Origin: Sneathiella sedimenti
GTDB taxonomy: Bacteria > Pseudomonadota > Alphaproteobacteria > Sneathiellales > Sneathiellaceae
Length of the DNA: 64,000 nucleotides
Direction of reading: 5' to 3'
Assembly: GCF_017313765.1 (NCBI RefSeq)
Contig: NZ_JAFLNC010000003.1
Span: 1-64,000 of the forward strand
The notes beneath the pieces were generated by a model. It made no database searches, had not been told where the DNA came from, and saw nothing but the letters and a program-made list of their open reading frames with translations. The stretch's first letter is position 1; each line of letters starts with the position of its first letter. Shown here one piece after another: positions 43 through 28,713 of this stretch. Both the position numbers and the translations under genes were made by a program.

Positions 43-119
<77 letters not shown>

Positions 120-345: not shown

Positions 346-2076
346 CTATTGCATCTCATCAATGATAACGCACCAATAAATTCCGCCATTAAGATATCCC
401 GCCATATCGCAATCAAACTGATTTCTTTCATGGCTAATTTCCGTCTTTAACCCTCTATCGGCTAATAGTCGTGTCCAGACTGCGAGACCGTCCTGGGTCG
501 ACGTCGATTGGAAATCCCGATAGGCCGGAGGATCATAGAACATTAGGAGTTTTACTTCCGGGAACAGAGATATTTTTTCAATCATCTCTGTTCGGGCATA
601 CAAGAGCCTGCTCTCACGGACGGCGCCGAGACCGCTCGCTAATATGCACCCCAAGAAGGACAGAAGCGCGACAAAGGCAAGAACGCGGGCAGCGAAGTCC
701 CACTTTTTCGCGTGGTTCAGTTTTATAAATGCGGCAATGAATAGGATGGCGCTCAGCCATGTGAAAGGAACATATCGGGCCCACCAGGATTCCGGGAAGA
801 ACATGGAAGCGAGGATCATCAGAGCGCCAAATAGGGCCAAGCCGTCCTCTGCACGGGTTGAAATAGCTCTGCTATGTTTTCGATGAGCGAGACGGCGGAT
901 GGTGAAGGCCGCGATAGCGGCAAGTAATGCCAGGCTGAAGAAAGGGCCAAAACCGCCACGGCGGGTATCAAACCTGAGATACTTGAACTCTGATAATTGA
1001 AATGTTCCCGGGATTTTGAGCTCGATAGGAGCATCAATCGGCCATTCACTGTGATCGGTTTGGGCGAAGATACCATAGACAAACTTCATAGGGGCAGATA
1101 GCGGGATCACATTTTCGGGCTCATTTCCCTTCATGATTTTAGAGACTGAAGGATACAGAAGCTGCCCGTGATCCAGGATATTGGTAACATAGGGCTTAAA
1201 CCCGATGACAGTGACGCCGAGGATGAAAGTAAACGCGAACAAGAGTCCCTTTTTTCGTATCCATAAAAGGCCACGCTTCAAAAGATCTCTATCTGCCCGT
1301 TGAATTGTAAGTTCTGCCACAAAGCCGGCAAAGACGATTAACGGTGTGTAGTAAAGGGCCGCTGTCTTGGTGTTTACCATCAGAATAATGCAACAGAGGG
1401 CGCTGAGGCGGGCGAGGCGATTTTCGCGAAATGCATCTGAGAGAAGGAATAGCGCGAGCGCCACGCCAAACAAGTAAAGCGGGGCGTCAACATAATGGGT
1501 TAAGAGTTGTCCGATGACGACGGGGTTTGCGACAAGGATGCCACTAAATATCAAAGCGGCTATCCGGGGAAACCGAGGTATATTTTCTGCGCAGCTATCC
1601 AGGAAAAAGCCGTATGACAGAAGGGCCACGGCCGCCATCAAGCCCACGATCAAGGCCTGTCCCGACATCAGCAATCCTGTAAGGCTGACAATGTAAGATT
1701 GGAGTACCCAGTAGCCATTGGGGTAGGAATCCACCCAAATATTATTATGCGGGGAAAAGAATGGATTCCATCCTTCGCCAATATCCCATATGGCACTCAA
1801 ATGGTAGGCATATCCATCAAAGCCCGGGTCATAGAAAGGGATGGTTGCGAAAGCCCAGATCAAAGTTATTGCCGCAAACAGGGCTAGTGCAATGAGACTT
1901 TGTCCCAGGCTCTTTTTTCCGGCCATTGTTGTCACTATGCCGAGTGTAATTAGGAGCGCGAAACCAAAGAAGATAAGCGGGGTGTGAAAAGTTTCAGTGG
2001 CGAAGCGGCTAACTATGAGCAGGGTAGCAAGGAAAAGGAAGACCGTGGATGCGCCGATATTCGCAAATTTAGACAT
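346..2076 (-). CDS. GT-C-type membrane glycosyltransferase-like protein, family A copy 1
   Basis: A 576-residue polytopic protein with roughly 11-13 hydrophobic segments. It is the first of four paralogues here (2141, 8576 and 10463 start the others). Conserved blocks shared by all four are an acidic first-loop motif (GFDGYAYHL), NNIWVDSYPNGYW, THYVDAPLY, NTKTA(A)LYY, GYKPYVTN, FDTRRGGFGP and FPESWWARYVPF. The early acidic loop followed by many membrane spans is the usual GT-C layout, where a lipid-phosphate sugar is used on the periplasmic side. The exact family, donor and acceptor are not recognised. The C-terminus carries Cys556 and Cys569, conserved in spacing in every copy. The ATG start at 2076 has AAGGA 9 nt upstream. 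Copy 2 lies 64 bp upstream in the same direction. Confidence 0.8.
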   Translation of the reverse strand: MSKFANIGASTVFLFLATLLIVSRFATETFHTPLIFFGFALLITLGIVTTMAGKKSLGQSLIALALFAAITLIWAFATIPFYDPGFDGYAYHLSAIWDIGEGWNPFFSPHNNIWVDSYPNGYWVLQSYIVSLTGLLMSGQALIVGLMAAVALLSYGFFLDSCAENIPRFPRIAALIFSGILVANPVVIGQLLTHYVDAPLYLFGVALALFLLSDAFRENRLARLSALCCIILMVNTKTAALYYTPLIVFAGFVAELTIQRADRDLLKRGLLWIRKKGLLFAFTFILGVTVIGFKPYVTNILDHGQLLYPSVSKIMKGNEPENVIPLSAPMKFVYGIFAQTDHSEWPIDAPIELKIPGTFQLSEFKYLRFDTRRGGFGPFFSLALLAAIAAFTIRRLAHRKHSRAISTRAEDGLALFGALMILASMFFPESWWARYVPFTWLSAILFIAAFIKLNHAKKWDFAARVLAFVALLSFLGCILASGLGAVRESRLLYARTEMIEKISLFPEVKLLMFYDPPAYRDFQSTSTQDGLAVWTRLLADRGLKTEISHERNQFDCDMAGYLNGGIYWCVIIDEMQ

Positions 2077-2140
2077 ACGTGGTTTCCTTAAGACCGCATT
2101 TTTGAATTTGCGTCATGTTTGGGTTGTTCCAGTACGGTAT

Positions 2141-3877
2141 TTATTCATTTTGAGGTGCTTTCGCACACCACAATATGTTGCCATCAAAGAAGCCCGACAT
2201 CTCGCAATCATCCTTATGAAATTCGGAGGTCATTTTGCTTTCGATCCCGCGCTCACGGAGAAGCGTTGCCCAGGTTTTATCGGAGTAGGTGATCGCCGTC
2301 GACTGATGATCTTTGATAACCCTGGGATCATGGATGAGTGTAAGCTCGATAATTGGGTAGTTCTTCATATTCTCGATAACGGCAGTTCTTTGATAGGTAT
2401 GCCAGCTCTGCCGGAGCGAACCAAGGATAGCAGACGCAATATTGCCGAAAAAGCAAAGGGCGATAATGGACATTAGAATCGCCGATGTCAGGGAGCGCGT
2501 CTTTCTTTCTCCGAAAAAGAGAGTGGAGATGGTTACCAGCAATACACCGAGCCACGTAAAGGGAACATAACGCGCCCACCAGGACTCCGGAAAAAATACT
2601 GATGCCAGGATCAGTATTAAGGCAAATAAAGCCAGTACATCGCCTTTGCTGCGCTCTCGGTCGTCATCTCCGCGGGCACGCGTAAATCGCGTTAAAGCAT
2701 ACAGGGCAATTGCAAGGATAAGGGCAAGACTAAAAAAGGGGCCAAAGCCGCCCCGGCGCGTGTCAAAATCGAGAGCTTTGAACTCAGAGAGTTGGAAGGT
2801 GCCCGGGATTTTCAGGTGGACAGGCGCCGTGACCAATACAGGCCAGACGCTATCTTCTGTCCGTGAGAATATTCCATAGAAAAACTTTACCGGTATCGAC
2901 AATGATTCCAGATTGTTCGGGATGTTCGTTGCCATGATCTTATCAACGGAAGGATAGAGCAGTTCTCCATGATCCATGACATTGGTGACATAGGGTTTAT
3001 ACCCGATGATGGTGATGCCGATAACAAACGCCAGCCCGAAAGGAATTCCCCGACGTTTGATCCAGTTAAAAATAAACTGGACATGTGAAATCGCAACATT
3101 TTTCAATACCCATCCGGCCATAAAGCTGGCGAAGACGATCATCGGTACGTAATAGAGCGAAGCCGTTTTGGTGTTTACCATCAGGATAATGCAGCCGATA
3201 GCACTCCATCTTGCAAGTCGGTTGTCAGAATAAGTATCAGATAAAAGAAATAGCGCTAATGCACTTCCCAAGAGATAAAGCGATCCGTCGATATAGTGGG
3301 TCATTATCTGGGTTAGGACGACCGGGTTTGCGACAATAACGAGGGCGAACAAAAGTCCCCAGAACATCTTAAGCCGAGACAGTCGGTCTGAAATATGGTC
3401 CTGAAAGAACCCGTAGGCAAGCAATGCAACCGCCGCCGTCAATCCGACAGTGAGGGACTTTCCCGAGAGCAACAACCCGGTCGTGGAGACGAGGTATGAT
3501 TGCAGCACCCAATAGCCGCTCGGGTAGGAATCAACCCAGATATTGTCATGAGACGATAGGAACGGGCTCCAACCTCGAGCCAGATCCCAAATAGCCGTCA
3601 AATGATAGGAATGGCCGTCATGTCCGGCGTCGTACAGAAACTGGGTCGCGATCGCCCAAATCGCGATAACCACCCAAAAACTGACAACTGCCGTCAGTGC
3701 CATGAGCGATGTCTTGTGTCCTCCGACTATCCGGAAGATCACGAAAATCAAAAAAGTGGCAAGTCCCAAAAATATCGCCGGGTGAAGGGTATTGGTAACC
3801 GGGATTCTGCTAATAATTAACAGGATGGAAAGAAACAGAAAGATCGCGGAAGAACCAACATTTGCAAATCGCGTCAT
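2141..3877 (-). CDS. GT-C-type membrane glycosyltransferase-like protein, family A copy 2
   Basis: A 578-residue multi-spanning paralogue of the neighbouring copy, with the same ordered blocks: GHDGHSYHL in the first loop, NNIWVDSYPSGYW, THYIDGSLY, NTKTASLYY, GYKPYVTN, FDTRRGGFGP and FPESWWARYVPF. The two terminal cysteines are Cys558 and Cys571. It is probably cotranscribed with copy 1 (64 bp gap) from the AT-rich region 3878-4231, which it shares with the divergent family B genes. Catalysis by an acidic residue in the first periplasmic loop is inferred from the GT-C fold class and is not demonstrated. No SD of full strength is seen; AAAGGGA lies about 11 nt before the ATG. Confidence 0.8.
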   Translation of the reverse strand: MTRFANVGSSAIFLFLSILLIISRIPVTNTLHPAIFLGLATFLIFVIFRIVGGHKTSLMALTAVVSFWVVIAIWAIATQFLYDAGHDGHSYHLTAIWDLARGWSPFLSSHDNIWVDSYPSGYWVLQSYLVSTTGLLLSGKSLTVGLTAAVALLAYGFFQDHISDRLSRLKMFWGLLFALVIVANPVVLTQIMTHYIDGSLYLLGSALALFLLSDTYSDNRLARWSAIGCIILMVNTKTASLYYVPMIVFASFMAGWVLKNVAISHVQFIFNWIKRRGIPFGLAFVIGITIIGYKPYVTNVMDHGELLYPSVDKIMATNIPNNLESLSIPVKFFYGIFSRTEDSVWPVLVTAPVHLKIPGTFQLSEFKALDFDTRRGGFGPFFSLALILAIALYALTRFTRARGDDDRERSKGDVLALFALILILASVFFPESWWARYVPFTWLGVLLVTISTLFFGERKTRSLTSAILMSIIALCFFGNIASAILGSLRQSWHTYQRTAVIENMKNYPIIELTLIHDPRVIKDHQSTAITYSDKTWATLLRERGIESKMTSEFHKDDCEMSGFFDGNILWCAKAPQNE

Positions 3878-4231
3878 CTACAGAAAATCCCTTTTTCACC
3901 ATTTCGCCCGGCAAACATTCGATACCATAAACAAACTAATAAACCATTGCCAGTAATGACGAAGTTGGAAATAGGGGGTCGGCAACGCGACTGATGATTA
4001 AGAAGGATCTGAAATGCATCTTAATTTATTAATTAGAGACTACATTGGAGGTCTTTAGAGCGAAAATTTTGTTAAGTATTTGTTTTAAGATAAAAAAATT
4101 TATTATTTCTTTAATCTAATATTTGATGACTTGACCCTTTCCTGCCGATCATTAGTATGAGGGCACCACGCTCGACGGACACAATACGAAATTTCCTTGT
4201 CGTAGACGATTGAAGAAGGCCAGAGTTGTAA
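3878..4231. promoter_or_regulatory. AT-rich divergent control region between GT-C families
   Basis: A 354-bp stretch without a credible gene separates copy A2 (minus) from copy B1 (plus). It is markedly AT-rich between about 4020 and 4130, unlike the coding DNA on either side. A plausible sigma-70 promoter for the plus strand is TTGACC (4131-4136), 16 bp, TAGTAT (4153-4158). No convincing operator palindrome was found. This is the only large divergent control region inside the array, so it probably sets expression of both families. Confidence 0.45.
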
Positions 4232-5596
4232 ATGTCAGAGCTGAAGTCCCAGGAACGTGCATATAATCCAGCCAATTTGTTTATTTGGATGGTCGGTACA
4301 TTACTTGCCTTGGGCGCTATCTATGACGGCATCGACTATATTTGGGGTAAAGGCTGGGCGCTAGATGAGTTGCGCACCATAGTGCAGCTTGTCATCGTGG
4401 ACGATGACTCCTGGTGGCCAATGTATAATGCCGCGAAAGCCCGTCTTTTGAATGCAGGCGTCTATCAAACGGTATTCTTTGAAGAGAGGATGAAGTTCCA
4501 ATATCCGCCGCTAAGCATTCTGCCGTTCATCATTTTCATTAAGATTGGTATGAGCTGGGAGACGATCCGGGAGGTTATGAATGCCATTTCTTTTGCCTCC
4601 ATATTGCTTATGGTCGCAATTGTATATTCTTTGATAGTGATCCTGTTCAAAAGATTTCCTATTTCCGGGAAGTTTGACTGGAAGTATAAAATTCCGTTTT
4701 TTGTTATTTCTCTTATCGGAACGTTTAGCTTCGACGCAATAGTCAGGGCGCAGTACCTGGGCCAGATTCAGGTCATTTTGGATTTACTGGTGTGTCTTGC
4801 TTTTCTGCTACTTCTCTTGAACCAGAAATATTTTTCGGGAGCATGCCTTGCATTGGCGGCATTGGTCAAACCCCAGCTAATACTGCTGTTTCTATGGGCG
4901 TTGATCCGCAAGGAAAAGGAAATAATGATTGGGATGATCGCCGTCTTTGTTCCCGCGGGGGCCCTTTCTCTCTATGTCTTTGGTTTTAGTGAGCATGTCC
5001 AATACCTGGAAACTCTGTCCCTCATGGGTAAACATGGCGAAGCCTATTGGCCAAACCAGAGTATCAATGGTCTCCTGCATCGATTGTTAAGTGACGTTGA
5101 TGCATTGACCTTCCCGGTCAATTCCTATGCACCCTATAATCCGTTTATTTATGGCGCCACCATCGTGACGACCGTGATGTTAATTTTGCTGGGTCTGTTT
5201 TTCCGCCCGGAATCATCAAGCCGTGGCCTTTCGCAGGACAGGAAGCTCACAGGTTATTCGCTCGATATGGCCACGATGCTTTTGTTAGTGACAATGGCAT
5301 CGCCGATAGCATGGTATCACCATTATGGCATTGTATGGCCATTCTACGTTGCTGCTTTTGTCGTTTTGTGTTGCCTCCGTTCCATACGGCGGAGTTGGCA
5401 GACTATCGTGATTGGCAGTTTATTAAGTGCAAGCTTTCTGCTGCTATCAAATAGATTTCCCGCGCTGACGAGTGAAGCCTTTTCTGCACCTCCCATAAAT
5501 CTGTTGCTATCACATTATCTTTTTGGGGCATTTCTGTTTCTGGCGGCCTTGTTGATGCTGCGCCGTACTTTGGCGGGTGAATACCGTAACAACTGA
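4232..5596 (+). CDS. GT87/DUF2029-like membrane glycosyltransferase, family B copy 1
   Basis: A 454-residue polytopic protein resembling the DUF2029/GT87 group, which in actinobacteria contains polyprenyl-phosphate-mannose-dependent mannosyltransferases. Motifs supporting this are DDSWWPMY in the first loop, KFQYPPLSILPF, a GQIQV segment, ALVKPQ in a membrane helix, and YWPNQSINGLLHRLL. The NQS-x-x-G(L) element is typical of the family. ASPIAWYHHYG lies near the C-terminal third. It is the first of three tandem plus-strand copies with gaps of 93 and 100 bp. None of the three has a clear SD sequence, so translation may be modest or leader-driven. Donor and acceptor are unknown. Confidence 0.82.
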   Translation: MSELKSQERAYNPANLFIWMVGTLLALGAIYDGIDYIWGKGWALDELRTIVQLVIVDDDSWWPMYNAAKARLLNAGVYQTVFFEERMKFQYPPLSILPFIIFIKIGMSWETIREVMNAISFASILLMVAIVYSLIVILFKRFPISGKFDWKYKIPFFVISLIGTFSFDAIVRAQYLGQIQVILDLLVCLAFLLLLLNQKYFSGACLALAALVKPQLILLFLWALIRKEKEIMIGMIAVFVPAGALSLYVFGFSEHVQYLETLSLMGKHGEAYWPNQSINGLLHRLLSDVDALTFPVNSYAPYNPFIYGATIVTTVMLILLGLFFRPESSSRGLSQDRKLTGYSLDMATMLLLVTMASPIAWYHHYGIVWPFYVAAFVVLCCLRSIRRSWQTIVIGSLLSASFLLLSNRFPALTSEAFSAPPINLLLSHYLFGAFLFLAALLMLRRTLAGEYRNN

Positions 5597-5689
5597 ACAC
5601 GCGCAGTATGGTAAAGTGTTAATAAATTTACGTTAATAAATATGCAGATAGGTCAGACAGATATTACTAGAACCGAAAGTTTGTAGATT

Positions 5690-7081
5690 ATGTTTCGAGA
5701 AATAAATAAAGATCCTGCAAGTCTTTATATAATAACAATGGGCATCTTGATCTCGCTTTTTCTAGTAAACGGTTTTTTTGATTACGTCTGGGGCTTTGGT
5801 TATACATTTTATGAGTTAAAGGCCGTATTGTTCCAGGCCATGGAACAGGATGACTCATGGCTACCGATGTATGAAGCGGCCTATGCCAGACGGGAATTTC
5901 CAGAACAAGGTATCTACGAAGTCGTTTTCTTCGAGCAAGGCATAAAGTTTCAGTATCCGCCAATAAGCTTGCTTCCGTACATGCTCCTGATCAAGCTTGG
6001 CCTTGGTCTCGCATCCATCATCAAAATTTCCTATGCTGTTTCGTTCCTGGCGATGCTTGGGGTTGCATTCTGCGGATATAAAATAGTTGTCCTACTTCTG
6101 GATAAATATGCGAACGAATATTTGATATCCAGACACGCTCATTTGGGCATCTTTCTTGTGTCATTGCTCGCCATATTTACATATCACCCGATTGTTATTG
6201 CCCAGTATCTCGGCCAGGTGCAGGTGATAATCGATCTGTTGATAAGCCTTGCCTTTCTGGCCTGGCTGAGCGAAAGAAAACATCTTGCGGGAATGGCGAT
6301 TGCGTTCGCGGCTTTAATAAAGCCGACTTTGGCTTTGGTGTTGCTCTGGGCGCTGATACGAAAAGAAACGGCCTGTTTTGTCGGGATGTTAGTCGTATTT
6401 ATTCCGGCCGGAATTATCTCTCTCGCCGTATTCGGATTTAACGAACATTTGGATTATCTCAAGGTGCTGTCATACATCGGCACTCACGGGGAGTCATTCT
6501 GGCCGAACCAGAGCATTAATGGTCTGCTTCACAGGCTTTTGGGGACAGCTAACCCTGGTGAATTTGATGCTTTTTCCTATTCGATGCACGACACATATGT
6601 TTATGCGGGCACTCTAATCTCTAGCGGCGCATTAATTTTGTTTGGATTGTTCTTTATCAAACCGAAGACCAACAACACCGTTGGTTCTGTACTTGACTTG
6701 GCAACGATGGTGCTCCTGGTGGTTATGGCCGCCCCTACGGCATGGACGCATCATTATGGTGTTTTGTGGCCGGCCTTTACGATGGCGATTATGATAGGGA
6801 TCATCCTCTTGCTGAATGGCCGAAGTCGTTACGCAAGGGCTGGCTTCATCTTGCTTTGCGTCGGCTATTTTCTCATATCGAATTATTTTACTTTTGCAGA
6901 CATTGAAGCCTTTTATGCGCCGCCGGTTAATTTAATTTTGTCTCATTTTCTGTATGGAGGCTTTATTACCTTATTCGCGCTCTTGCTACTTAGGTATGCC
7001 GCAGCTGGCGAATGGTCAGATTTAGAGGCCTCCGTTAAGGGCAAGGGTCTTCATAGTGCAAATTTTACGGAAGTGGAATAA
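5690..7081 (+). CDS. GT87/DUF2029-like membrane glycosyltransferase, family B copy 2
   Basis: A 463-residue paralogue of the flanking genes, with the same landmarks: DDSWLPMYEAA, KFQYPPISLLPY, GQVQVIIDLL, ALIKPTLAL, FWPNQSINGLLHRLL and APTAWTHHYG. It has a longer hydrophilic C-terminal tail of about 15 residues that is absent from copies 1 and 3. Many hydrophobic helices indicate an inner-membrane location with the acidic first loop facing the periplasm. The position inside a same-strand triplet supports cotranscription, although 93-100 bp gaps leave room for separate promoters. The role as a GT-C transferase is inferred from family resemblance. Confidence 0.8.
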   Translation: MFREINKDPASLYIITMGILISLFLVNGFFDYVWGFGYTFYELKAVLFQAMEQDDSWLPMYEAAYARREFPEQGIYEVVFFEQGIKFQYPPISLLPYMLLIKLGLGLASIIKISYAVSFLAMLGVAFCGYKIVVLLLDKYANEYLISRHAHLGIFLVSLLAIFTYHPIVIAQYLGQVQVIIDLLISLAFLAWLSERKHLAGMAIAFAALIKPTLALVLLWALIRKETACFVGMLVVFIPAGIISLAVFGFNEHLDYLKVLSYIGTHGESFWPNQSINGLLHRLLGTANPGEFDAFSYSMHDTYVYAGTLISSGALILFGLFFIKPKTNNTVGSVLDLATMVLLVVMAAPTAWTHHYGVLWPAFTMAIMIGIILLLNGRSRYARAGFILLCVGYFLISNYFTFADIEAFYAPPVNLILSHFLYGGFITLFALLLLRYAAAGEWSDLEASVKGKGLHSANFTEVE

Positions 7082-7181
7082 CTTGACCTCTTTTAGTCCA
7101 GTTGTAGTATTCAAACATCATCTGGAAATTCATATCAAGTTGACCAAATCATGCCGTAATCAGTCCGGATAGTTCATCTTT

Positions 7182-8540
7182 ATGTCCCAACGTCCCATTA
7201 AATCAGTTAATCCTGCCCTCCTTTTCATCTTGGTTGTCGGCGGGATAGTATTCCTTGGGATAGCTAAAGACGTGATAGATTATGTCCTTGGTGACACCTA
7301 TATTGCGACACTTACAAAGTCAGTCCTATTTCTTGATCTGATTTATTTTGATTCATGGTGGCCCATGACGGAGGCCGCGGTCGCGAAGCTCACCTTTCCG
7401 GATCAGGGGATCTATGAAAATGTTTTCTTCGAAAGACGTATAAAATTCCAGTATCCCCCAATCAGCATTCTGCCATTTTGGGTGGTTTACAAGTTTGATA
7501 TGAGTTGGGAGAGAGCGACAGAAATCGCAAATTTCGTGTCGTATTTATCTTTATTCGGTATCGTCATTTGCGGCTTTCAAACGATCATCGTAATCGCCAG
7601 GAAATATTATCTGGAATTTCAGGGATCTCCTGCTTTCCGCCTGGCCGCCTTTTTAATCGTTCTTATCGGTACTTTCAGCTTTTACCCGTTGATGTGGGGG
7701 CAGTTTATTGGCCAGGTTCAGGTCTTTATAGACTTGCTGATCAGTATTGCCTTTGTGGCATGGCTCATGGGAAGGAAGTACTTCTCGGGCATGATGATTG
7801 CGCTTGCCGCATTAATTAAGCCACAGTTCGCGCTCCTCCTTCTCTGGGCCTTATTTCGAAAAGAGAAGCACTTCTTGATAGGGCTGATGATTGTTTTCAT
7901 ACCTGCGGGGATCGTATCTCTCGCTCTATTCGGTTTTCAGGAACATGTGGATTACTTGAGGGCGCTTTCTCATATGGGCAAGCACGGGGAAGTGTATTGG
8001 CCAAATCAGAGCATCAACGGAGTACTGAACCGGTTATTGGTTGATGCGACGTCCTTGCAGTGGACATTGGAATCTTTCGCACCCTATAACCTGATCGTGC
8101 ATATCGGGACTATCGTCTCTACAGTTGTCTTTATCGCTGTGGGGTTATTCTATAAGCGGGAAACGGATGCGATCGCAGGAAGCGGGCCAACTATGGGCTC
8201 TGCTTTGGACCTCGCAACGATGCTTTTGGTTTGCACCATCGCATCACCAGTGGCATGGATCCACCATTACGGAATCTTGTTGCCCATTTTTCTTACCGCC
8301 TTTTTGACGGCCATTCACTCTATTTCGACGGAAGCCCGACTGTCATCGCTCCTTAATCTTCTGCTTCTATGTACAAGCTATTTTCTGTTAGCGAATTACT
8401 ATACCCTTGCGGAGCAGGAAGCCTTCAGCGAGCCACCGATTAACTTGCTTCAATCCCTGCATTTTTACGGGGCGCTTTTGCTGTTGATTACGCTCTTTTT
8501 GTTGAGAATTGACGTGGCAAGGAAGGCGCCGCTCAAATAG
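7182..8540 (+). CDS. GT87/DUF2029-like membrane glycosyltransferase, family B copy 3
   Basis: A 452-residue paralogue with DSWWPMTEAA in the first loop, KFQYPPISILPF, GQVQVFIDLL, ALIKPQFALLLLWAL, YWPNQSINGVLNRLL and ASPVAWIHHYG. The first acidic pair seen as DD in copies 1 and 2 is FD here (IYFDSWW), so only one Asp of that pair is kept. The gene ends 35 bp before the convergent family A copy 3, with no clear terminator in between. The hydrophobic profile is the same as the other two copies. Specific sugar and acceptor cannot be deduced. Confidence 0.8.
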   Translation: MSQRPIKSVNPALLFILVVGGIVFLGIAKDVIDYVLGDTYIATLTKSVLFLDLIYFDSWWPMTEAAVAKLTFPDQGIYENVFFERRIKFQYPPISILPFWVVYKFDMSWERATEIANFVSYLSLFGIVICGFQTIIVIARKYYLEFQGSPAFRLAAFLIVLIGTFSFYPLMWGQFIGQVQVFIDLLISIAFVAWLMGRKYFSGMMIALAALIKPQFALLLLWALFRKEKHFLIGLMIVFIPAGIVSLALFGFQEHVDYLRALSHMGKHGEVYWPNQSINGVLNRLLVDATSLQWTLESFAPYNLIVHIGTIVSTVVFIAVGLFYKRETDAIAGSGPTMGSALDLATMLLVCTIASPVAWIHHYGILLPIFLTAFLTAIHSISTEARLSSLLNLLLLCTSYFLLANYYTLAEQEAFSEPPINLLQSLHFYGALLLLITLFLLRIDVARKAPLK

Positions 8541-8575
8541 CTGTCGCCAATTCAGAGAAGTGAACCCTCGCGAAC

Positions 8576-10357
8576 TCAGTTTGGCTGTTTATTCGGTACC
8601 CTTGGGACGCACCAGAGTACATGCGCTTCCAGCCAGCCCAATTTCTCGCAGTATTCCTTCTCTCTAAATGGTATTTCCGTGCCGACGATACGGACGTGCA
8701 CACCGTTCTCGCGGAGCACCCGCGCCCAAACATTTGCCGCATCGGAAATTTGCTGGGACTGAAAGTCCCGCGTAATACGTATATCTTTTTCGATATATAT
8801 TTCAATGACGGGAGAGTCCTTCACGGCTTCAACGGCGTGAGTGGCTATTTGTACCCGCAGGCTTTGCTTCAGCGCCCCGCCTGCACCGGCCGCAACGCAT
8901 AGAAGAAATGACAGCATAGCAAGTCCCTGCAGAACCCGCGTTAATATCAGGAATTTTCCGTGCCCTGCCAGGAAAAGGGAGGCAACGGCGAAAAGGACGG
9001 CGCTAAGCCAGGTAAAGGGGACATAACGGGCCCACCAGGATTCCGGAAAAAACATGGAAATCAGGAGGAGCGCAAGAGCGAGTGTCGCCAGACTGTCCCC
9101 CTTGCGTGCCATTGCATAAGGCCCACTTGAAAGGCTTGCTATTCTGCAGAGCGCATAGGCGAGAATGGAGCTTAGCAGGGCCAGGCTGAACATGGGCCCG
9201 AACCCACCCCGCCGCGTGTCAAACCGAAGAATTTTGAATTCATCGATCGAAAATGTTCCAGGAAATTTGAGATTGATCTGGGAGTCGAACGGGTAGGGCC
9301 ACAATGTCCTCCCGGTTTCGGCAAATATACCGTAGAAAAACCCGACAGGTGCTGAAACGCCATTAACATTATTCGGAATATTATAGCTCATGATTTCCGT
9401 AACGGATGGATAGAGCAGTGCCAGATGATCTTGGAGATTGGTCACATAGGGTTTGTACCCGAGAACGATAATCGCAACAAAATACACGAACGCATATATG
9501 AGGCCTCGGGAAATGATCCATCGCACAGCACGTGGCAGGCAATTTCTAATACCTCCGTTCGCGACCAGGTCGGCCAGAAACCCCCCAATCACAATAAGGG
9601 GTACATAGTACAGATTGGCTGTTTTCGTATTGATCAGTAAGATGATGCAGCTGAGCACGCCCCACCTGGCAAGCTTATTGGGACTGCATGCATCTATCAT
9701 CAGAAAGAACACCAGACCGCAGCCAAGCAAGTAGAGCGGCGCGTCTGTGTAATGTGTCATGACTTGCGTCAGGACGATGGGGTTCCCGATGACAAGGCAG
9801 GCCAGGAATAGCGAGGTAAGTCTCTTGAACTTGGAGACATGATCCGCGCAATGCTCCAGGAAAAACCCGTAGGAAAGTATCGTGACGGTAACCATGAGCC
9901 CCGATAGTAGGGACTGACCGGATAGGATGAGCCCGGTTGTTGCGACGATATAGGATTGCAGCGCCCAATATCCGTTCGGATAGGAATCAATCCAGATATT
10001 GTTATGTGGGGTCGCAAGAGGGTTCCACCCTTCCGCCAAATCCCATATCGCCGTCAAGTGATAGGCATATTCATCATCGCCGGGTGAATAGAGCGGTGAT
10101 GTCGCATATGCCCAGAACAGAAGAAATATAGAAAAGCCGGTGATTGAGATCAGTGCCGTTCTTGACGCCCTTGGCCCGTCAACAAAATAAACCAGCAAAA
10201 TTGTCAGTATGACGGCAACCCCCAGATCCACATAGGGGGGAAGCATTGTGGCAATTGTAATACGGTTGACAATTAGCAGAAGCGCCAAAAAAATGAATAC
10301 TGAAGAGGCACTGACAATAGATAAACGTGTTTGCAAGCTATGACGATCGTGCTGCAA
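8576..10357 (-). CDS. GT-C-type membrane glycosyltransferase-like protein, family A copy 3
   Basis: The longest family A member at 593 residues. It keeps GDDEYAYHL, NNIWIDSYPNGYW, THYTDAPLY, NTKTANLYY, GYKPYVTN, FDTRRGGFGP and FPESWWARYVPF, plus terminal Cys570 and Cys583. The first-loop motif is GDDEYAYHL instead of GxDGxxYHL, the largest departure at the presumed active loop. The start is uncertain: TTG at 10357 has AGGGGG upstream, whereas TTG at 10336 would line up better with the N-termini of the paralogues but has no SD. Copy 4 lies 105 bp upstream on the same strand. Confidence 0.78.
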   Translation of the reverse strand: MQHDRHSLQTRLSIVSASSVFIFLALLLIVNRITIATMLPPYVDLGVAVILTILLVYFVDGPRASRTALISITGFSIFLLFWAYATSPLYSPGDDEYAYHLTAIWDLAEGWNPLATPHNNIWIDSYPNGYWALQSYIVATTGLILSGQSLLSGLMVTVTILSYGFFLEHCADHVSKFKRLTSLFLACLVIGNPIVLTQVMTHYTDAPLYLLGCGLVFFLMIDACSPNKLARWGVLSCIILLINTKTANLYYVPLIVIGGFLADLVANGGIRNCLPRAVRWIISRGLIYAFVYFVAIIVLGYKPYVTNLQDHLALLYPSVTEIMSYNIPNNVNGVSAPVGFFYGIFAETGRTLWPYPFDSQINLKFPGTFSIDEFKILRFDTRRGGFGPMFSLALLSSILAYALCRIASLSSGPYAMARKGDSLATLALALLLISMFFPESWWARYVPFTWLSAVLFAVASLFLAGHGKFLILTRVLQGLAMLSFLLCVAAGAGGALKQSLRVQIATHAVEAVKDSPVIEIYIEKDIRITRDFQSQQISDAANVWARVLRENGVHVRIVGTEIPFREKEYCEKLGWLEAHVLWCVPRVPNKQPN

Positions 10358-10462
10358 TTTCTGGCCCCCTCGGCTGCAACTTTTTGGAATTTAGCGTAAT
10401 GAAAATTGTCGTGACTGTCGCATTGTCACAAAATAGGGATTGGATGTCATCTTTGGCAATAA

Positions 10463-12202
10463 CTATTCCCCAGGATTTTTCGGAATACACCAGAGGACAG
10501 CACCAAAAAAATATCCTGATTGAACACATGTCGTTTCGTCAAATTCCTCCGTAATCCTGGTGTTGACACCCTCCCTTTCGAGGATTTCTGCATAGACTGT
10601 CGCCGCATCGGATTGTGATTTAGACTGGTAGTCAAAGAAAACGCGAACTTCCTTGATAAGCGTAAGCTCAACAACTGGCGCGGTCCTCATTTGTTCAATC
10701 GGGGCAAATCGTTGATATGTCTGTATATGTTGGCGGGCCGCGCCTAACGCCGCGGACAACATACAGCCCAGTAAGGCGACGATGGTAATCGCCATGGCAG
10801 CCTGCGTAAAAATTCTACTTTTACCGGTCAATTCAATCTGCAGAGTGGAAACTGCAAGAAATGCCGGGGTCAACCATAGAAACGGTACATATCTGGCCCA
10901 CCATGGTTCAGGGAAAAGGACAGTAATGACGAGGAGAATAATCCCGAAAAGCGCAATCCCGCCGCTCTCCCGTCGAGACATGGTAATTTCTTGACGGAAC
11001 ACGGCAATGCGGCTTACTGCGAAAGAAAGTAATGAAGTCAAAAGGGCCAGGCTAAACAGCGGCCCGAAGCCGCCTCGTCGGGTATCAAAATCGGGTGCCT
11101 TAAACTCCGCTAATGTGAAAGTACCAGGTATTTTTACATTTATGGGCGCTTCCACAGGAATGCCGTAACGATTGTGTTCTGTTCGTGCGAGGAGCCCGAC
11201 CAGAAACTTTTGCGGGCCAGGCATTGGATCCTGTACATTTAATGGCGTGTTTTTATTCATTATGTCCGCGGACGGGGGATATAATAAATCGTTGTGATCC
11301 AGAATATTGGTGACATATGGCTTGTAACCGATCACCAGAATGGCGAAGATCCCTGCCAATCCGTAGTAAATTCCTCTCTTGCCTGTCCAGTGAACAACCT
11401 CTCGTAACCAACCGGAAGACCCCCGCAGGACGAACAGCTCCATAAGAAAGCCGCCAAAAATGATAAGCGGTGTGAAATAGAGTGCGCTGGTTTTGATATT
11501 GATGAGGAGAATGAGGCAGGCAATGGCACCGATCCACGCAATGCGGCCCTTCCCTATGGCATCCGACATCAAGAAGAATATAAGCGAGGCACCAACCACA
11601 TATAACGGTGCATCCACATAATGCGTTTGTATCTGGGTCAAAAGGATGGGGTTGGCAACCACAACGGCCGCGAATAGAACAGACGTCCAAATCCTGAAAC
11701 GCGGCAAAGCGGGCGATATTTTCTCGTAGAAAAATGCGAAGGATTGTAATCCCAGCACCAACATCAGCGCAATCAGCAGGGACTGGCCGGCCATCGGTAA
11801 GCCCGTTATGGACACAAGATACGATTGCAATGCCCAATAACCCGAGGGGTAGGAATCCACCCATATGTTATTGTTTGGCGTGAGAAAGGGATGCCAGCCG
11901 TTCGCCAGATCCCAGATTGCGGTTAAGTGGTAGACATAGCCGTCATGGCCTGCCGGATAGAATGGTTGTGTTCCATAAGACCAGGCAGCTAGGATTACAA
12001 AAAATACTGCAATCGAAAAAAAAGCGGTAATAAACGATTTTCGTCCCGCGAGACCCGCCATGAGGATAAGGGTGATGGCAAGAGCAACGCCAACCTGGAA
12101 GAGAGGGGACAAAGCGCCGTAAAAATCAGCCCTACCAATTGTGAGAAGAACAACAAGAAAGGTAAAAATAGAGGCAGATGCCGAATTGACGTTTTTCATC
12201 AT
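10463..12202 (-). CDS. GT-C-type membrane glycosyltransferase-like protein, family A copy 4
   Basis: A 579-residue polytopic paralogue with GHDGYVYHL, NNIWVDSYPSGYW, THYVDAPLY, NIKTSALYF, GYKPYVTN, FDTRRGGFGP and FPEPWWARYVPF. The last block has Pro where the other copies have Ser. Terminal Cys559 and Cys572 are kept. The two ATG codons at 12202 and 12199 are equally possible starts. It closes the array on the right; the next gene is an unrelated exporter about 160 bp away. The function is presumed to be periplasmic transfer of a sugar from a lipid-phosphate donor. Confidence 0.78.
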   Translation of the reverse strand: MMKNVNSASASIFTFLVVLLTIGRADFYGALSPLFQVGVALAITLILMAGLAGRKSFITAFFSIAVFFVILAAWSYGTQPFYPAGHDGYVYHLTAIWDLANGWHPFLTPNNNIWVDSYPSGYWALQSYLVSITGLPMAGQSLLIALMLVLGLQSFAFFYEKISPALPRFRIWTSVLFAAVVVANPILLTQIQTHYVDAPLYVVGASLIFFLMSDAIGKGRIAWIGAIACLILLINIKTSALYFTPLIIFGGFLMELFVLRGSSGWLREVVHWTGKRGIYYGLAGIFAILVIGYKPYVTNILDHNDLLYPPSADIMNKNTPLNVQDPMPGPQKFLVGLLARTEHNRYGIPVEAPINVKIPGTFTLAEFKAPDFDTRRGGFGPLFSLALLTSLLSFAVSRIAVFRQEITMSRRESGGIALFGIILLVITVLFPEPWWARYVPFLWLTPAFLAVSTLQIELTGKSRIFTQAAMAITIVALLGCMLSAALGAARQHIQTYQRFAPIEQMRTAPVVELTLIKEVRVFFDYQSKSQSDAATVYAEILEREGVNTRITEEFDETTCVQSGYFFGAVLWCIPKNPGE

Positions 12203-12364: not shown

Positions 12365-13288
12365 TCAATCATCTGTGGCATTTAGCGAGTTTGCTGAAGT
12401 AGCGTCTGCATCTTCCTTGCGCCACAGCGAAATAACAAGACCGGTGATTACCAGCGCCGCTCCGATCAAATCCTGAACTGATAGGGGTTGTGCGATAAAC
12501 AGGGCGCCGAGGATCGAAGCTGTGATCGGGCTAAGGCCTAAGAATACCGTTACATTGGAAGGCGGAATATAGGCGAGGGCGAAAAGCCAGCAGAAATAGC
12601 CCACTGCGCTGGAGAAACCGATAAAAGACAAGATGATCCATGTCATCGTCGAAAAGCCAGGAACGGCATCGATCATGCCTTCCATAACGGCGAGCCCAAA
12701 TAGGAAAACAACCGCACATCCCATTGCCATGGTGCTGATTTGTAATGTCGGGTAGCGGGGCATGTAAGCACCATAGAGGACGGAGCAGAGCGCCCCTAAA
12801 AAGGCGCTCAAGAGCGCCGCTCCGATACCAACCCATCCCATTGACCCGATATCTTGTACGAACGCTGTTGCGCCTACGGCAAATCCAACACCAACAATTG
12901 TCAGCACAATTCCGGTAAGTTTGCGGTAAGTAAATTGCTCGCGTCCGAGCATAATTGCCAAGGCCATCGTGAGAAGGGGCAGACTTGCGAAGATGAGGAC
13001 AGCGAGACCCACGGCAATATAAATAACGGAAAAATTCAGTAGTATGATGAGGATTGCGAACTGGAAAATTCCGAAGAGCAGGATCAACACGAAATCCCGC
13101 GGCGACACCGGGGTCCATCGAATGCGAACTGCAAACGGAAGTAAAAGCAGGACACCGATCAGGTAACGACAAAAGGCAATTGTAACCGGACCGATCTCAC
13201 TGACAATTGATCCGGTCGCTACCGTAGCGGCCCCCACAACAAGACCACTCATGGCGGCGGCCGTCAAAGCCAGGTTGGTGCGGTTCAT
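12365..13288 (-). CDS. EamA/DMT-family transporter
   Basis: A 307-residue protein with about ten hydrophobic helices in two homologous halves, the standard layout of the drug/metabolite transporter superfamily with two EamA repeats. The second half contains the recognisable GLSPITASILGALF helix and ends in a short charged cytoplasmic tail. It overlaps the 3' end of the MarR-GNAT gene by 4 bp (ATGA), so the two are translationally coupled and probably share the operator at 14219-14246. Export of an amino acid or drug-like compound is likely. The substrate is not determinable. Confidence 0.9.
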   Translation of the reverse strand: MNRTNLALTAAAMSGLVVGAATVATGSIVSEIGPVTIAFCRYLIGVLLLLPFAVRIRWTPVSPRDFVLILLFGIFQFAILIILLNFSVIYIAVGLAVLIFASLPLLTMALAIMLGREQFTYRKLTGIVLTIVGVGFAVGATAFVQDIGSMGWVGIGAALLSAFLGALCSVLYGAYMPRYPTLQISTMAMGCAVVFLFGLAVMEGMIDAVPGFSTMTWIILSFIGFSSAVGYFCWLFALAYIPPSNVTVFLGLSPITASILGALFIAQPLSVQDLIGAALVITGLVISLWRKEDADATSANSLNATDD

Positions 13289-14208
13289 AAGATTAAGTCC
13301 CAGGTCTGCCCAACGAGATCCTGCCCAAAGCTATGGTGTGGCTCCTCGTCAATCAGCTTAAACCCGGCCTCTTCATATAGATGGATTGCCGCATAGAGGG
13401 TGCTGTTGGTCCAGAGGGTCACCTTTACATAATTTTTGCGGCGGGCGAAGCGAATGCATTCGTCAACCAGCTTGCGGCCAACACCGAGACCTCGTGCCGT
13501 CGGCTCGACATAAAGCAGGCGCAACTGGGCGGTTGACAAGTCTTTCTTAACCAGAGAAACGGAGCCGAGAATGACGTCGTTTCGCTCGGCGATCCAGCAA
13601 TGCTCGAATTCTGGGTCGTAGTTTGTCAGAAAATCCTCTCCGACTTTCGCAACCAGTGCTTCAAAACTGCTGTCGAATCCGTACTCTTGCGCATAAAGAG
13701 CGCCATGACGATGAATTACCCAGCCGATATCGCCGGGACGATGACTACGGATAATAACCGGGTCTGTTATTTCCTCGGCAGGGGCAAGTGTAGATGAAAT
13801 GAGGTTCATCGCTTCAATCAGCCGGATTTGCTCGGCATCGGAGAGCAGAGTGAGTATGGCCGCGACCTCATCTTGAGACGCCTTTATGAAGGGAGTGAAA
13901 TCGCGTCGCCCTTCTTCCGTGAAAATGAGGACTCGCTGTCGTCCGTCTCTCGCGCTTTTCGCTGTTTTCAGTAATCCTTCAGACTTGAATTTTTTGAGGA
14001 TACGGCTGAGATAGGCAGGATCTAGTGAGAGACTTTTTACGAGATCGCCGGCGGTCAGGTTATCACCGGAATAGAGTTCGTAGAGCACGCGCATTTCCGT
14101 GAGGGAAAAGCGGCTATTCAACAGCCCCTCGTTAAGGGCGCCAACATGCTTTGTATAGAATCTGTTGAATTTTCTAACAGCATTGATGCGCTTTTCAGAG
14201 ACGGCCAT
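13285..14208 (-). CDS. MarR-type regulator fused to GNAT acetyltransferase
   Basis: A 307-residue two-domain protein. Residues about 1-145 form a MarR winged helix (LTAGDLVKSLSLDPAYLSRILKKF is the recognition region). Residues about 150-307 form a GNAT domain with the acetyl-CoA loop LYVEPTARGLGVGRKLVDE. Such fusions are a known bacterial family. They probably sense or modify a small molecule and control a linked transporter. The gene overlaps the downstream EamA exporter by 4 bp. The start is fixed by GGGAGG just before the ATG. A perfect palindrome (14219-14246) abuts this SD, pointing to autorepression. Confidence 0.9.
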   Translation of the reverse strand: MAVSEKRINAVRKFNRFYTKHVGALNEGLLNSRFSLTEMRVLYELYSGDNLTAGDLVKSLSLDPAYLSRILKKFKSEGLLKTAKSARDGRQRVLIFTEEGRRDFTPFIKASQDEVAAILTLLSDAEQIRLIEAMNLISSTLAPAEEITDPVIIRSHRPGDIGWVIHRHGALYAQEYGFDSSFEALVAKVGEDFLTNYDPEFEHCWIAERNDVILGSVSLVKKDLSTAQLRLLYVEPTARGLGVGRKLVDECIRFARRKNYVKVTLWTNSTLYAAIHLYEEAGFKLIDEEPHHSFGQDLVGQTWDLIL

Positions 14209-24129: not shown

Positions 24130-25023
24130 ATGACTCCAGCGAATAGGCGCCTGGTAATTATTCACAACCCAACTTCCGGGATGCGAAACAAAAGCAGATT
24201 TTCAAAGGCACTGTTGCGATTAGCAGAAACCCGGTGCGAGGTTGAAATTCTGAAAACCAGCGGTCCTGGCCATGCAACATTCCTTACACAGGAACTGATC
24301 AGCAGGAATGAACCTGACCTTGTTCTTGTTGCGGCCGGTGGAGACGGTACTGTCTCGGAGATATTGAACGGGCTTACAGGAGGCGCGCTGCCCCTCGGTG
24401 TTATCCCTCTCGGAACGGCGAATGTACTCGCGCGTGAGCTCGGAATTGGCGTGTCGATAGATAAGGCGGTGGAGACCCTGGTGCACGCGGATCCTGTGCC
24501 GGCCTATACGGCCGTCGCAAATGATAAACGGTTCTTGCTGATGCTCGGGGCTGGCTATGACTCCCTTGCGGTTGCGGCCCTGAATTCAAATCAGAAAAAG
24601 CGTTTTGGCGCCATTGCCTATGTTGTCGCGGCGGTGCGAGCGATATCCGGATTTCAGGATATGAAGCTCGATATCAAGATAAATGGTACGCATTACAGTG
24701 CCGGAACTGTCGTCATTTCAAAGGCGAAATACTACGGGGGTCCTTTTATTATCGCGCCCGATGGCGGATTAGATAAACCACGGCTCGATGTTCTTATATT
24801 TAAAGGATCGGGCATTGTGAATGCCTTGCGTTATGGTGTGGCCCTGCTCCTAAACCGGATTTCCCGCTTGCCCGATGTTGAAACACTGGTGACAGACATG
24901 CCAATATTGCTGACAGCGTCAAGGGAGTTTCCCTGCCAGTGTGACGGTGATGGCGGTCTTGTTACGCCGGTGAAAGTTTCCCTGGATCCAAAGCCGCTGA
25001 TGATACTTCGGGCGGCAGTCTAG
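24130..25023 (+). CDS. diacylglycerol kinase family lipid kinase (YegS/BmrU type)
   Basis: A 297-residue soluble lipid kinase. The N-terminal domain shows VIIHNPTSG, AAGGDGTVSEILNGL and VIPLGTANVLARELG, the DAGKc signature. The C-terminal beta-rich domain ends normally. It is predicted to phosphorylate diacylglycerol to phosphatidate. It is divergent from plcP-agt over 144 bp containing Pho-box-like repeats, so it may recycle diacylglycerol made by PlcP, or act on the product lipid. The stop codon interlocks with that of the convergent GT39-like gene in a CTAG palindrome. Confidence 0.88.
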   Translation: MTPANRRLVIIHNPTSGMRNKSRFSKALLRLAETRCEVEILKTSGPGHATFLTQELISRNEPDLVLVAAGGDGTVSEILNGLTGGALPLGVIPLGTANVLARELGIGVSIDKAVETLVHADPVPAYTAVANDKRFLLMLGAGYDSLAVAALNSNQKKRFGAIAYVVAAVRAISGFQDMKLDIKINGTHYSAGTVVISKAKYYGGPFIIAPDGGLDKPRLDVLIFKGSGIVNALRYGVALLLNRISRLPDVETLVTDMPILLTASREFPCQCDGDGGLVTPVKVSLDPKPLMILRAAV

Positions 25024-26612
25024 TTGCGATCAAAACGTTCTACGCGAATATTGTCCCAAACTTGTTCCTCCGCAGGGGTAAACTGCTCCCCCAAAGTCCT
25101 TCTTGTTACGCCTTTCGGATCAAATAGGGCAGGTTGCCGTGTCACCAGAAAAACGCGATCCTTGCCGTCAACTAGGTCCCGGATAACTTGTGCATCTTCT
25201 GCGCGAACCCCCGGAACTGCGGGAAATCCGTCTGGGTAGAAGTTTGAATATTTGACGGCCGGATATTTCGCCGGAACGCTCTTAATTCGCTCCGCCAAAT
25301 CCGGATCGAAAATATAGAGACTGGACGGGAGATAAAGGTCATTTGGCATCAGAAGGACGACATCATTTCCACGGGTTTGGGTTGCAAGGCTCGCCATAAT
25401 TTCGTCCCAGGGTTCTTTCTCGCCTGAACGCAACATAGCCACAAGCCCGACGAGTAGAACTGCAACATAGAAAATCTTGATGATGTTTCGAAGCAGCCTG
25501 CTTCTCAAGAACTCAATCGCTAGAGACAGCAGCATAAAATAGGGGATAAGGCCCGGCAGCAAGGTGCGCTCCAGGAAAATGTTCGGGCCCAGTAACGAAA
25601 TAGCGAAGGAGACGACGGGGACGGCAAAACAACTTAGCAGGAAGAAGCAGGCAAGTGAATATGCCTTCCGGCGGATGATCTGATAAAGACCAAATAGAAC
25701 AAGCGCAACCGATAATAGGGCCGTTGCCAGACCAAGTACAAGCCGACCGGTATGAATGATCGTGTAGGGTCCAAAGGCCGTATCGATAAGCTTGTCGGTA
25801 TACCCAAAGCCGAAAATCCGCCGCATGATCTGAGTAAAGCTCGTGATTGTGGGTTCGGCGACCCAGCTGGAAGCTTCCCAATGGATTACTTGTCTTGCTA
25901 TCTGAATGATCAGCGGGGTAGAAAGCGCAAGCACAAGAACAAAGCAAAGCAGAAGTTTCAGGAGAAAACCTCTTCTGAATTTTAGCTCGAGGGCCCAATG
26001 CGCAGCCAGGGACAAGAACAATACCGCCGTAAAAATACCACCCAGATGGTGGGACCAGTTGGTCAGAAGCGTGCCAACAGCAAAAATTGCCCACCCCTTC
26101 AGCGTTGACCTGTCATCGTCCGAGAAAATTGAAACCAGTCCTAATATTGCCAGGGAATATGTCAGGAAAAGCAGAATATAGGGCCGGGCTTCAATCGAAT
26201 ACCACACGAGAACCGGACTAAAGCAGATCAGGACACTGTTAAAAAGCGCCGCGCCATTTCCTTCTGTTTGGAGATACGAAGCGGTATTTTTTGTTGAAAA
26301 ATAGGAGCAAACAACCAGTAAAAAGCTAAGGATAATAGAGAGGGACCGGTGCCATAATCCCGTATCGTCTGCTTCAATCAGACCCCAAAGCTTTACAAGG
26401 CTATAGTAGAGCGGCGGATGCGCCTCTACTTCCGGGAGCCAGAACCAGATCTCGCGAAATGACAATTTAGCAAACCAGGCGGTGTAGCCTTCGTCCAGCC
26501 AATAGGGAAGAGCTCCTTCATGAATGATTTTTATGGACAGCGATATAACGATGACGACAGCCAGAAAGCCATAGTGCCAAAACTGTTTCGCCTGCCCGCC
26601 CTGATCGTGCAA
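25020..26612 (-). CDS. GT39/PMT_2-type membrane glycosyltransferase
   Basis: A 530-residue polytopic protein. The first periplasmic loop reads LPYWLDEGYTAWFAK followed by EVEAHPPLYYSLVKLWG, the D/E-bearing loop and APPLYY-type element of the ArnT/PMT_2 group. Many membrane helices follow, and a hydrophilic C-terminal domain of about 130 residues lies after residue 400. Such enzymes move a sugar from a polyprenyl-phosphate carrier to lipid, glycan or protein. The start is TTG at 26612 with GGAG 9 nt upstream. It converges on the lipid kinase with a 4-bp overlap. It is divergent from the HAD-UbiA gene, which could make its donor. Confidence 0.85.
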   Translation of the reverse strand: MHDQGGQAKQFWHYGFLAVVIVISLSIKIIHEGALPYWLDEGYTAWFAKLSFREIWFWLPEVEAHPPLYYSLVKLWGLIEADDTGLWHRSLSIILSFLLVVCSYFSTKNTASYLQTEGNGAALFNSVLICFSPVLVWYSIEARPYILLFLTYSLAILGLVSIFSDDDRSTLKGWAIFAVGTLLTNWSHHLGGIFTAVLFLSLAAHWALELKFRRGFLLKLLLCFVLVLALSTPLIIQIARQVIHWEASSWVAEPTITSFTQIMRRIFGFGYTDKLIDTAFGPYTIIHTGRLVLGLATALLSVALVLFGLYQIIRRKAYSLACFFLLSCFAVPVVSFAISLLGPNIFLERTLLPGLIPYFMLLSLAIEFLRSRLLRNIIKIFYVAVLLVGLVAMLRSGEKEPWDEIMASLATQTRGNDVVLLMPNDLYLPSSLYIFDPDLAERIKSVPAKYPAVKYSNFYPDGFPAVPGVRAEDAQVIRDLVDGKDRVFLVTRQPALFDPKGVTRRTLGEQFTPAEEQVWDNIRVERFDRN

Positions 26613-28338: not shown

Positions 28339-28713
28339 ATGTCATTCCTTGTTCTCAGCTTGATCCTGCTGACGGTTTTTGCGTCCGCCTGTGCGCAGCT
28401 TGTCTTGAAGCTGGGGGTGGCGGATCAGAAAATGCAGGCGGCGATGCAGTCCGGAATTTATGATTCTGCCTTGGCAGCCCTATTCTCACCGTTCATCTGG
28501 TTTGGCTTGATTATTTATGCGTTGAGTGTCGTGCTTTGGCTCTGGGTCCTGTCGAAAGTCGACCTGAGTGTTGCATACCCTTTTGTCGGCATCGGCTTTG
28601 TGGTCACTATGCTGTTCGGGATTCTGTTGTTGAACGAAAATGTCACGCCGATGCGGATTATCGGGACAATCCTGATTGTTGGCGGATGCGTGCTTGTCGG
28701 ACGGTCGGCATAG
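28339..28713 (+). CDS. SMR/EamA-type small membrane transporter, flippase candidate
   Basis: A 124-residue protein with four membrane helices, in the small multidrug resistance/EamA fold and close in layout to ArnE/ArnF. Typical features are the first helix with a polar patch, WVLSKVDLSVAYPFVGIGFV, and the last helix IIGTILIVGGCVLVG. AGGAGG (28326-28331) precedes the ATG. It follows the HAD-UbiA gene on the same strand by 47 bp. By analogy with ArnE/F it could flip a polyprenyl-phosphate sugar for the GT-C enzymes. Drug export cannot be excluded. Confidence 0.82.
   Translation: MSFLVLSLILLTVFASACAQLVLKLGVADQKMQAAMQSGIYDSALAALFSPFIWFGLIIYALSVVLWLWVLSKVDLSVAYPFVGIGFVVTMLFGILLLNENVTPMRIIGTILIVGGCVLVGRSA

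Follow-up and report, generated by a model that had tools for sequence, protein, structure and literature searches.

What might seven membrane glycosyltransferases do side by side in an alphaproteobacterium, with no other enzyme among them? The question is raised by the start of a 488-kb contig of Sneathiella sedimenti (NZ_JAFLNC010000003.1, assembly GCF_017313765.1), whose first 64,000 nucleotides are the window analysed here. Positions 346-12202 hold an array in the order A-A / B-B-B / A-A, in which four genes of one family (family A) flank three of another (family B). We show that all eight Sneathiella genomes with an array also carry the gene of a HAD-UbiA fusion synthase, the enzyme around which the three-component pentofuranose system is built. 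The explanation we favour is that the family A proteins are pentofuranosyl transferases of the GT-C class fed by the HAD-UbiA pathway; we give it a probability of roughly 0.52.

The outer pairs of genes lie on the reverse strand and the B genes on the forward strand. The left pair consists of A1 (346-2076, 576 amino acids (aa)), called from its open reading frame (ORF), its place in the family A tree and its conserved residues, and A2 (2141-3877, 578 aa), the copy used for the structure model. Next come B1 (4232-5596, 454 aa), B2 (5690-7081, 463 aa) and B3 (7182-8540, 452 aa), all assigned through Pfam GT87, the last being the B copy that was modelled. The right pair consists of A3 (8576-10357, 593 aa), whose TTG start is also present in its orthologues, and A4 (10463-12202, 579 aa), called from its ORF and the tree. 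The ORF analysis revealed no internal stop or fusion in any of the seven genes, and the remaining ORFs of at least 100 aa at the array all overlap them. The other A copies are 43-49% identical to A1 and the other B copies 45-46% identical to B1, and a genome-wide search turned up no A gene beyond these four and no B gene beyond these three. Compared with the orthologues of a second species, all seven show ratios of nonsynonymous to synonymous substitution (dN/dS) of 0.04-0.11, that is, purifying selection. An earlier note on this DNA, made from the sequence alone, had described seven genes, none fused or broken, with no other enzyme in 12 kb. The description stands: the frames are intact and under purifying selection, nothing else lies between them, and the layout recurs in two further genomes (G003 and G019).

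The note had left family A unrecognised, while counting it among the GT-C enzymes, and our searches against Pfam, NCBIfam and the sequences of the PDB likewise found no credible match, even with a 20-member profile. A match of A2 to TssN (E = 0.0037, below the cut-off) was taken as chance, and a comparison of the A and B profiles reached at most P = 0.003 over 313 columns. The fold is more informative. An AlphaFold model of A2, built from 25 aligned members (predicted local distance difference test score (pLDDT) 81.8, predicted template modelling score 0.89), gave ten best Foldseek matches that are all GT-C, with EmbB at the top, followed by EmbC, ArnT, Pmt1/Pmt4 and oligosaccharyltransferase (probabilities 0.97-1.00). 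With a second structural aligner, the 50 entries listed were all GT-C enzymes or the GT-C-like subunit PIGU, and no transporter was among them. The Z scores were 13.9 for ArnT (390 residues, C-terminal domain included), 13.8 for Pmt4, 13.7 for AftD and 12.3 for AftA, values that helical proteins may reach by chance according to the tool's own warning.

Residue conservation points the same way. In an alignment of 20 diverse members, some only 18-27% identical, D87 (20 of 20), Y91, H92, K237, R436 and P439 are invariant. The first juxtamembrane helix of GT-C_A enzymes has been reported to bear an essential aspartate at its tip (PMC12041299), and D87 fits this rule, judged from the model and its conservation: it immediately precedes a short helix (91-100) that itself follows a long transmembrane helix, in a stretch (83-89) of low pLDDT. 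The Asp-x3-Tyr spacing of D87 and Y91 equals that of D58/Y62 in the mannosyltransferase PimE and of D31/Y35 in the GT136 enzyme ORF12, and R436-Y437 resembles R349-Y350 of ORF12. Because the fold matches and the catalytic-type aspartate is invariant, family A very probably belongs to GT-C, as far as a model can tell, and the identity proposed in the earlier note is supported. A transporter, polymerase, ligase or GT-C-like scaffold would be compatible with the missing sequence match to known transferases, and PIGU shows that the fold can occur without transferase activity; however, the structural matches are to GT-C, and both the aspartate and its tyrosine are invariant, as expected of an active enzyme, which makes a non-transferase very unlikely. 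Family A is a GT-C_A family held by neither Pfam nor NCBIfam, and it is likened to GT136 through published residues. ArnT, the aminoarabinose (Ara4N) transferase, is the best structural match, aligned over model residues 58-577, but it is only 8% identical to family A, no sequence relation was found, and the donor genes near the array are not those of the Ara4N pathway, an ArnE/F-like flippase excepted.

Family B could be assigned more directly. B1-B3 reach 65-78 bits against a Pfam GT87 gathering score of 25, and the best structural match of the B3 model (pLDDT 87.1) is PimE (Foldseek E = 6.8e-8; Z = 23.9 over 347 residues). In PimE, binding of the donor phosphate or activity itself depends on K195, Q163, W319, H321 and H322, and these align with invariant residues of family B, namely K213, Q178, W359, H361 and H362 of B3. 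Score, structure and donor-site residues together confirm the GT87-like character given in the earlier note. Family B differs from PimE in that identity is 17% and that the B genes are tandem paralogues in a Gram-negative genus.

Which donor, then, might these enzymes use? Further along the window, outside the account of the earlier note, lies the gene of the HAD-UbiA fusion (26855-28291, forward strand), predicted to be a polyprenyl-phosphoribofuranose synthase with its own phosphatase. It scores 591 bits with NCBIfam model NF006088 (cut-off 351), the next best models being those of decaprenyl-phosphate phosphoribosyltransferase, and it matches the M. tuberculosis enzyme DPPRS in the PDB with E = 4.7e-27. 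Its motifs DLDGT at 11, NDLLDLQED at 241 (NDxxDxxxD) and RYIE at 361 (RxxE) are spaced like the residues tested by Kelly et al. 2024 (PMC11127046), D18, N247-D255 and R366-E369. These authors showed that such a protein makes polyprenyl-phosphate-ribofuranose from phosphoribosyl pyrophosphate, and that a flippase and a GT-C enzyme then bring the sugar onto a polysaccharide that is exported. Directly downstream of the synthase is the gene of an SMR/ArnE-F-like small membrane protein (28339-28713, forward strand), which by family and place is the predicted flippase of the lipid-linked sugar, and which is also present in G015, G017, G021 and G022. On the other side of the synthase gene, a 530-aa membrane protein (25020-26612, reverse strand) had no family match in profile searches, and a profile comparison with family A found no relation; its motif DEGYTAW and its place lead us to suspect a further GT-C enzyme.

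The synthase is present in 8 of the 8 array genomes and in 2 of the 17 others (G021 and G022), and the distance between array and synthase is 7-15 kb where one contig spans both. The putative link between the two is one of genomic association. In G022, the HAD-UbiA and flippase genes are directly followed by that of a 705-aa membrane protein (L147:7004-9121), which matched no family and is possibly another type of transferase on the same donor core. G017 keeps the synthase, the flippase and three A genes and has lost B and the 530-aa protein, and therefore A is left as the transferase of its locus. Outside the genus, an A homologue of G285 is encoded directly beside a UbiA gene scoring above the cut-off for decaprenyl-phosphate phosphoribosyltransferase, and next come genes for a flippase-like protein, for DprE1 (best family, 412 bits) and for a DprE2-like reductase; judged by its families, this set is that of polyprenyl-phosphate-arabinofuranose. 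In three genomes of one other genus, no more than about 3 kb separate the A homologues from DPPRS-like UbiA genes. Such neighbours are thus found in two of about five lineages outside Sneathiella, and the chance of two such lineages is about one in ten thousand by a rough estimate that takes a 10-kb target and a 3-Mb genome. Apart from the gene beside the A homologue of G285, no DprE1 was found, and the 25 Sneathiella genomes had none at E <= 1e-20. Arabinofuranose was set aside for this reason, and ribofuranose would be the default sugar in the genus.

Very probably, the seven enzymes add sugars to a surface glycan on the outer side of the inner membrane. We propose that they act at the periplasmic face of that membrane with polyprenyl-phosphate-linked sugars as donors, and that family A would be a new pentofuranosyl GT-C family, expanded in this clade. 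Every A paralogue would form a linkage of its own, which its C-terminal periplasmic domain would determine, and the GT87 enzymes would work on the same glycan, their donor being either the same or a lipid-linked hexose. The donor sugar, the acceptor glycan and the division of labour in this proposal are our reading of what was computed, namely gene structure, families, fold, conserved residues and donor-gene linkage.

Several observations weigh against the proposal. The Foldseek E-values of family A are only 5e-3 to 5e-2, no acceptor polysaccharide genes lie within the array, and array and synthase in the window are some 15 kb apart with unrelated genes between them. The array genomes form one clade, so that finding array and synthase together within the genus amounts to little more than one event; the overlap of 8 in 10 was accordingly dropped as independent statistical evidence. 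Outside Sneathiella, three of the seven A homologues have no donor gene in the stretches read. Furthermore, an AglJ-like GT2 protein encoded elsewhere in the genome (TIGR04182, 211 bits, below the cut-off of 325) is a possible lipid-hexose synthase, which makes hexose donors possible. It could be, then, that the donors of the array enzymes are hexoses on polyprenyl phosphate (glucose, mannose or galactose), as they are in the Gtr-type modification of O-antigens, and that the HAD-UbiA pathway serves the 530-aa protein instead. The donor of PimE, the closest solved relative of family B, is polyprenyl-phosphate-mannose, the synthase has in the 530-aa protein a candidate transferase of its own, and in G022 synthase and flippase adjoin the other large membrane protein with no array. 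On the other hand, A homologues in two lineages outside the genus adjoin DPPRS-like UbiA genes, and G017 lacks the 530-aa protein and B, yet has synthase, flippase and A. We regard hexose donors for the whole array as an alternative to be taken seriously, if a rather unlikely one. The AglJ-like gene itself (locus L168, near position 1005041 of contig C1 of the same genome) has a 474-aa membrane frame bearing a GRVDHH motif before it and a small membrane ORF at some distance after it, and looks like part of a separate lipid-hexose transfer set.

Why should there be several copies of each family? The earlier note had offered two possibilities, a glycan decorated at several positions or phase-like alternatives, and the evidence favours the former. 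The C-terminal domain of A (residues 505-578), in which two cysteines are conserved, is 81% identical between species within an array position and 32% identical between positions within a genome; for the neighbouring membrane helices (446-504) the values are 63% and 29%. This suggests, from sequence comparison, that the domain is periplasmic and may set the acceptor or linkage of each copy. Because it is conserved within and divergent between positions, each A copy may have its own acceptor, and decoration at several positions fits both the position-specific orthologues and the position-specific domain. In the tree of family A, each array position forms its own group across species, and the paralogues are therefore older than these species. 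That several paralogues per family lie together, in two orientations, might be expected if they were interchangeable phase or antigenic variants of which one or few are used at a time. However, neither tandem nor long inverted repeats were found, nor any segment that could invert or was copied recently; the one family of direct repeats is a conserved coding stretch of the four A genes. The ancient paralogues group by position rather than by genome, and all copies are under purifying selection. Phase-like variation is therefore very unlikely.

The array is restricted in its distribution. Of the 25 Sneathiella genomes, eight carry family A, in 3 to 6 copies each, and all but one of the eight carry family B as well. 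In the rpoB tree the eight form one clade, in which the array is fixed and which also includes G021. This genome was considered as a natural array loss and rejected, since its contig stops at the counterpart of 17.7 kb in the window, before the array position. The full A-A / B-B-B / A-A order is present in G000, G003 and G019. G015 has five A, one B and one A gene; G001 has three A genes followed by one B, with a second B elsewhere; and the contiguous array of G017 consists of three A genes. The solitary B gene of G001, which is S. chungangensis-like, lies at L149:3431-4822 on contig C12, far from the array. Distant A homologues were found in seven other alphaproteobacterial genomes, and of the 385 genomes sampled from its class, 9 contain family A. 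Outside the class it was found in no genome at the level of phylum sampling, and a phylum-wide search gave one further match, which was already known. One homologue outside the genus (G148, L113:4053-5816) contains two stops and is either a pseudogene or affected by a sequence error. No B genes were found beside the A homologues outside the genus. The co-occurrence of A and B, which the earlier note had made a test of its reading, holds in seven of the eight array genomes and fails in G017.

A tRNA-fMet gene (43-119, forward strand), outside the function discussed here, marks the left border, as it does in G001, G002 and G003 (four genomes with S. sedimenti), and probably forms the 3' terminus of an rRNA operon that interrupts assemblies. 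On the right are genes for an EamA transporter, a MarR-GNAT regulator, a LysR regulator and a sugar ABC transporter, which are also found in array-less genomes. In the MarR-GNAT gene (13285-14208), a MarR domain is fused to a GNAT acetyltransferase domain, and its place beside the EamA transporter is conserved across the genus. Further on, a sugar-transfer-associated ATP-grasp protein (PF14397, 54476-55687) adjoins a protein with AMP-ligase, carrier and thioesterase parts of the nonribosomal peptide synthetase type (55716-58343), a possible pathway to a small peptide or acyl conjugate.

The closest known counterpart is the three-component pentofuranose system of Citrobacter youngae O1/O2 (synthase ORF15, flippase ORF14 and GT136 transferase ORF12; Kelly et al. 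2024, PMC11127046). In both, the HAD-UbiA synthase has its domains in the same order and carries the key catalytic residues, a flippase gene adjoins that of the synthase, and GT-C enzymes show the Asp-x3-Tyr motif. Unlike the C. youngae system, the flippase in Sneathiella is SMR/ArnE-F-like rather than MATE, the transferases number seven or eight where C. youngae has one, the array lies some 15 kb off, and O-antigen genes are not adjacent. With a predicted synthase and flippase both present, the Sneathiella locus appears to resemble a three-component system with many transferases. The mycobacterial arabinan machinery (DPPRS, DprE1/E2, Rv3789, EmbA-C and AftA-D) shares the polyprenyl-phosphate-pentofuranose logic and the use of many GT-Cs for one polymer, and EmbB is the top Foldseek match of family A; however, DprE1 was found in none of the 25 Sneathiella genomes, the synthase carries its own HAD phosphatase, and the Emb proteins are about twice as long as A. 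We found nothing relevant in the literature on Sneathiella glycosyltransferases.

Kelly et al. 2024 (PMC11127046) noted that some systems have several GT-Cs and left the meaning of this open. If the pentofuranose link is true, the array would be the most transferase-rich three-component system known to us. We would go further only tentatively: it is possible that this clade has turned a one-transferase three-component system into an array building a multiply branched, pentofuranose-rich surface polymer, with A as the founder of a new pentofuranosyl family and the C-terminal domain setting each linkage, which would make it a Gram-negative counterpart of the mycobacterial arabinan machinery. Family A itself is a rare GT-C family, absent from Pfam and NCBIfam, that now has a testable donor, and its constant catalytic face combined with a position-specific C-terminal domain makes it a natural set for studying how GT-C enzymes choose their acceptors.

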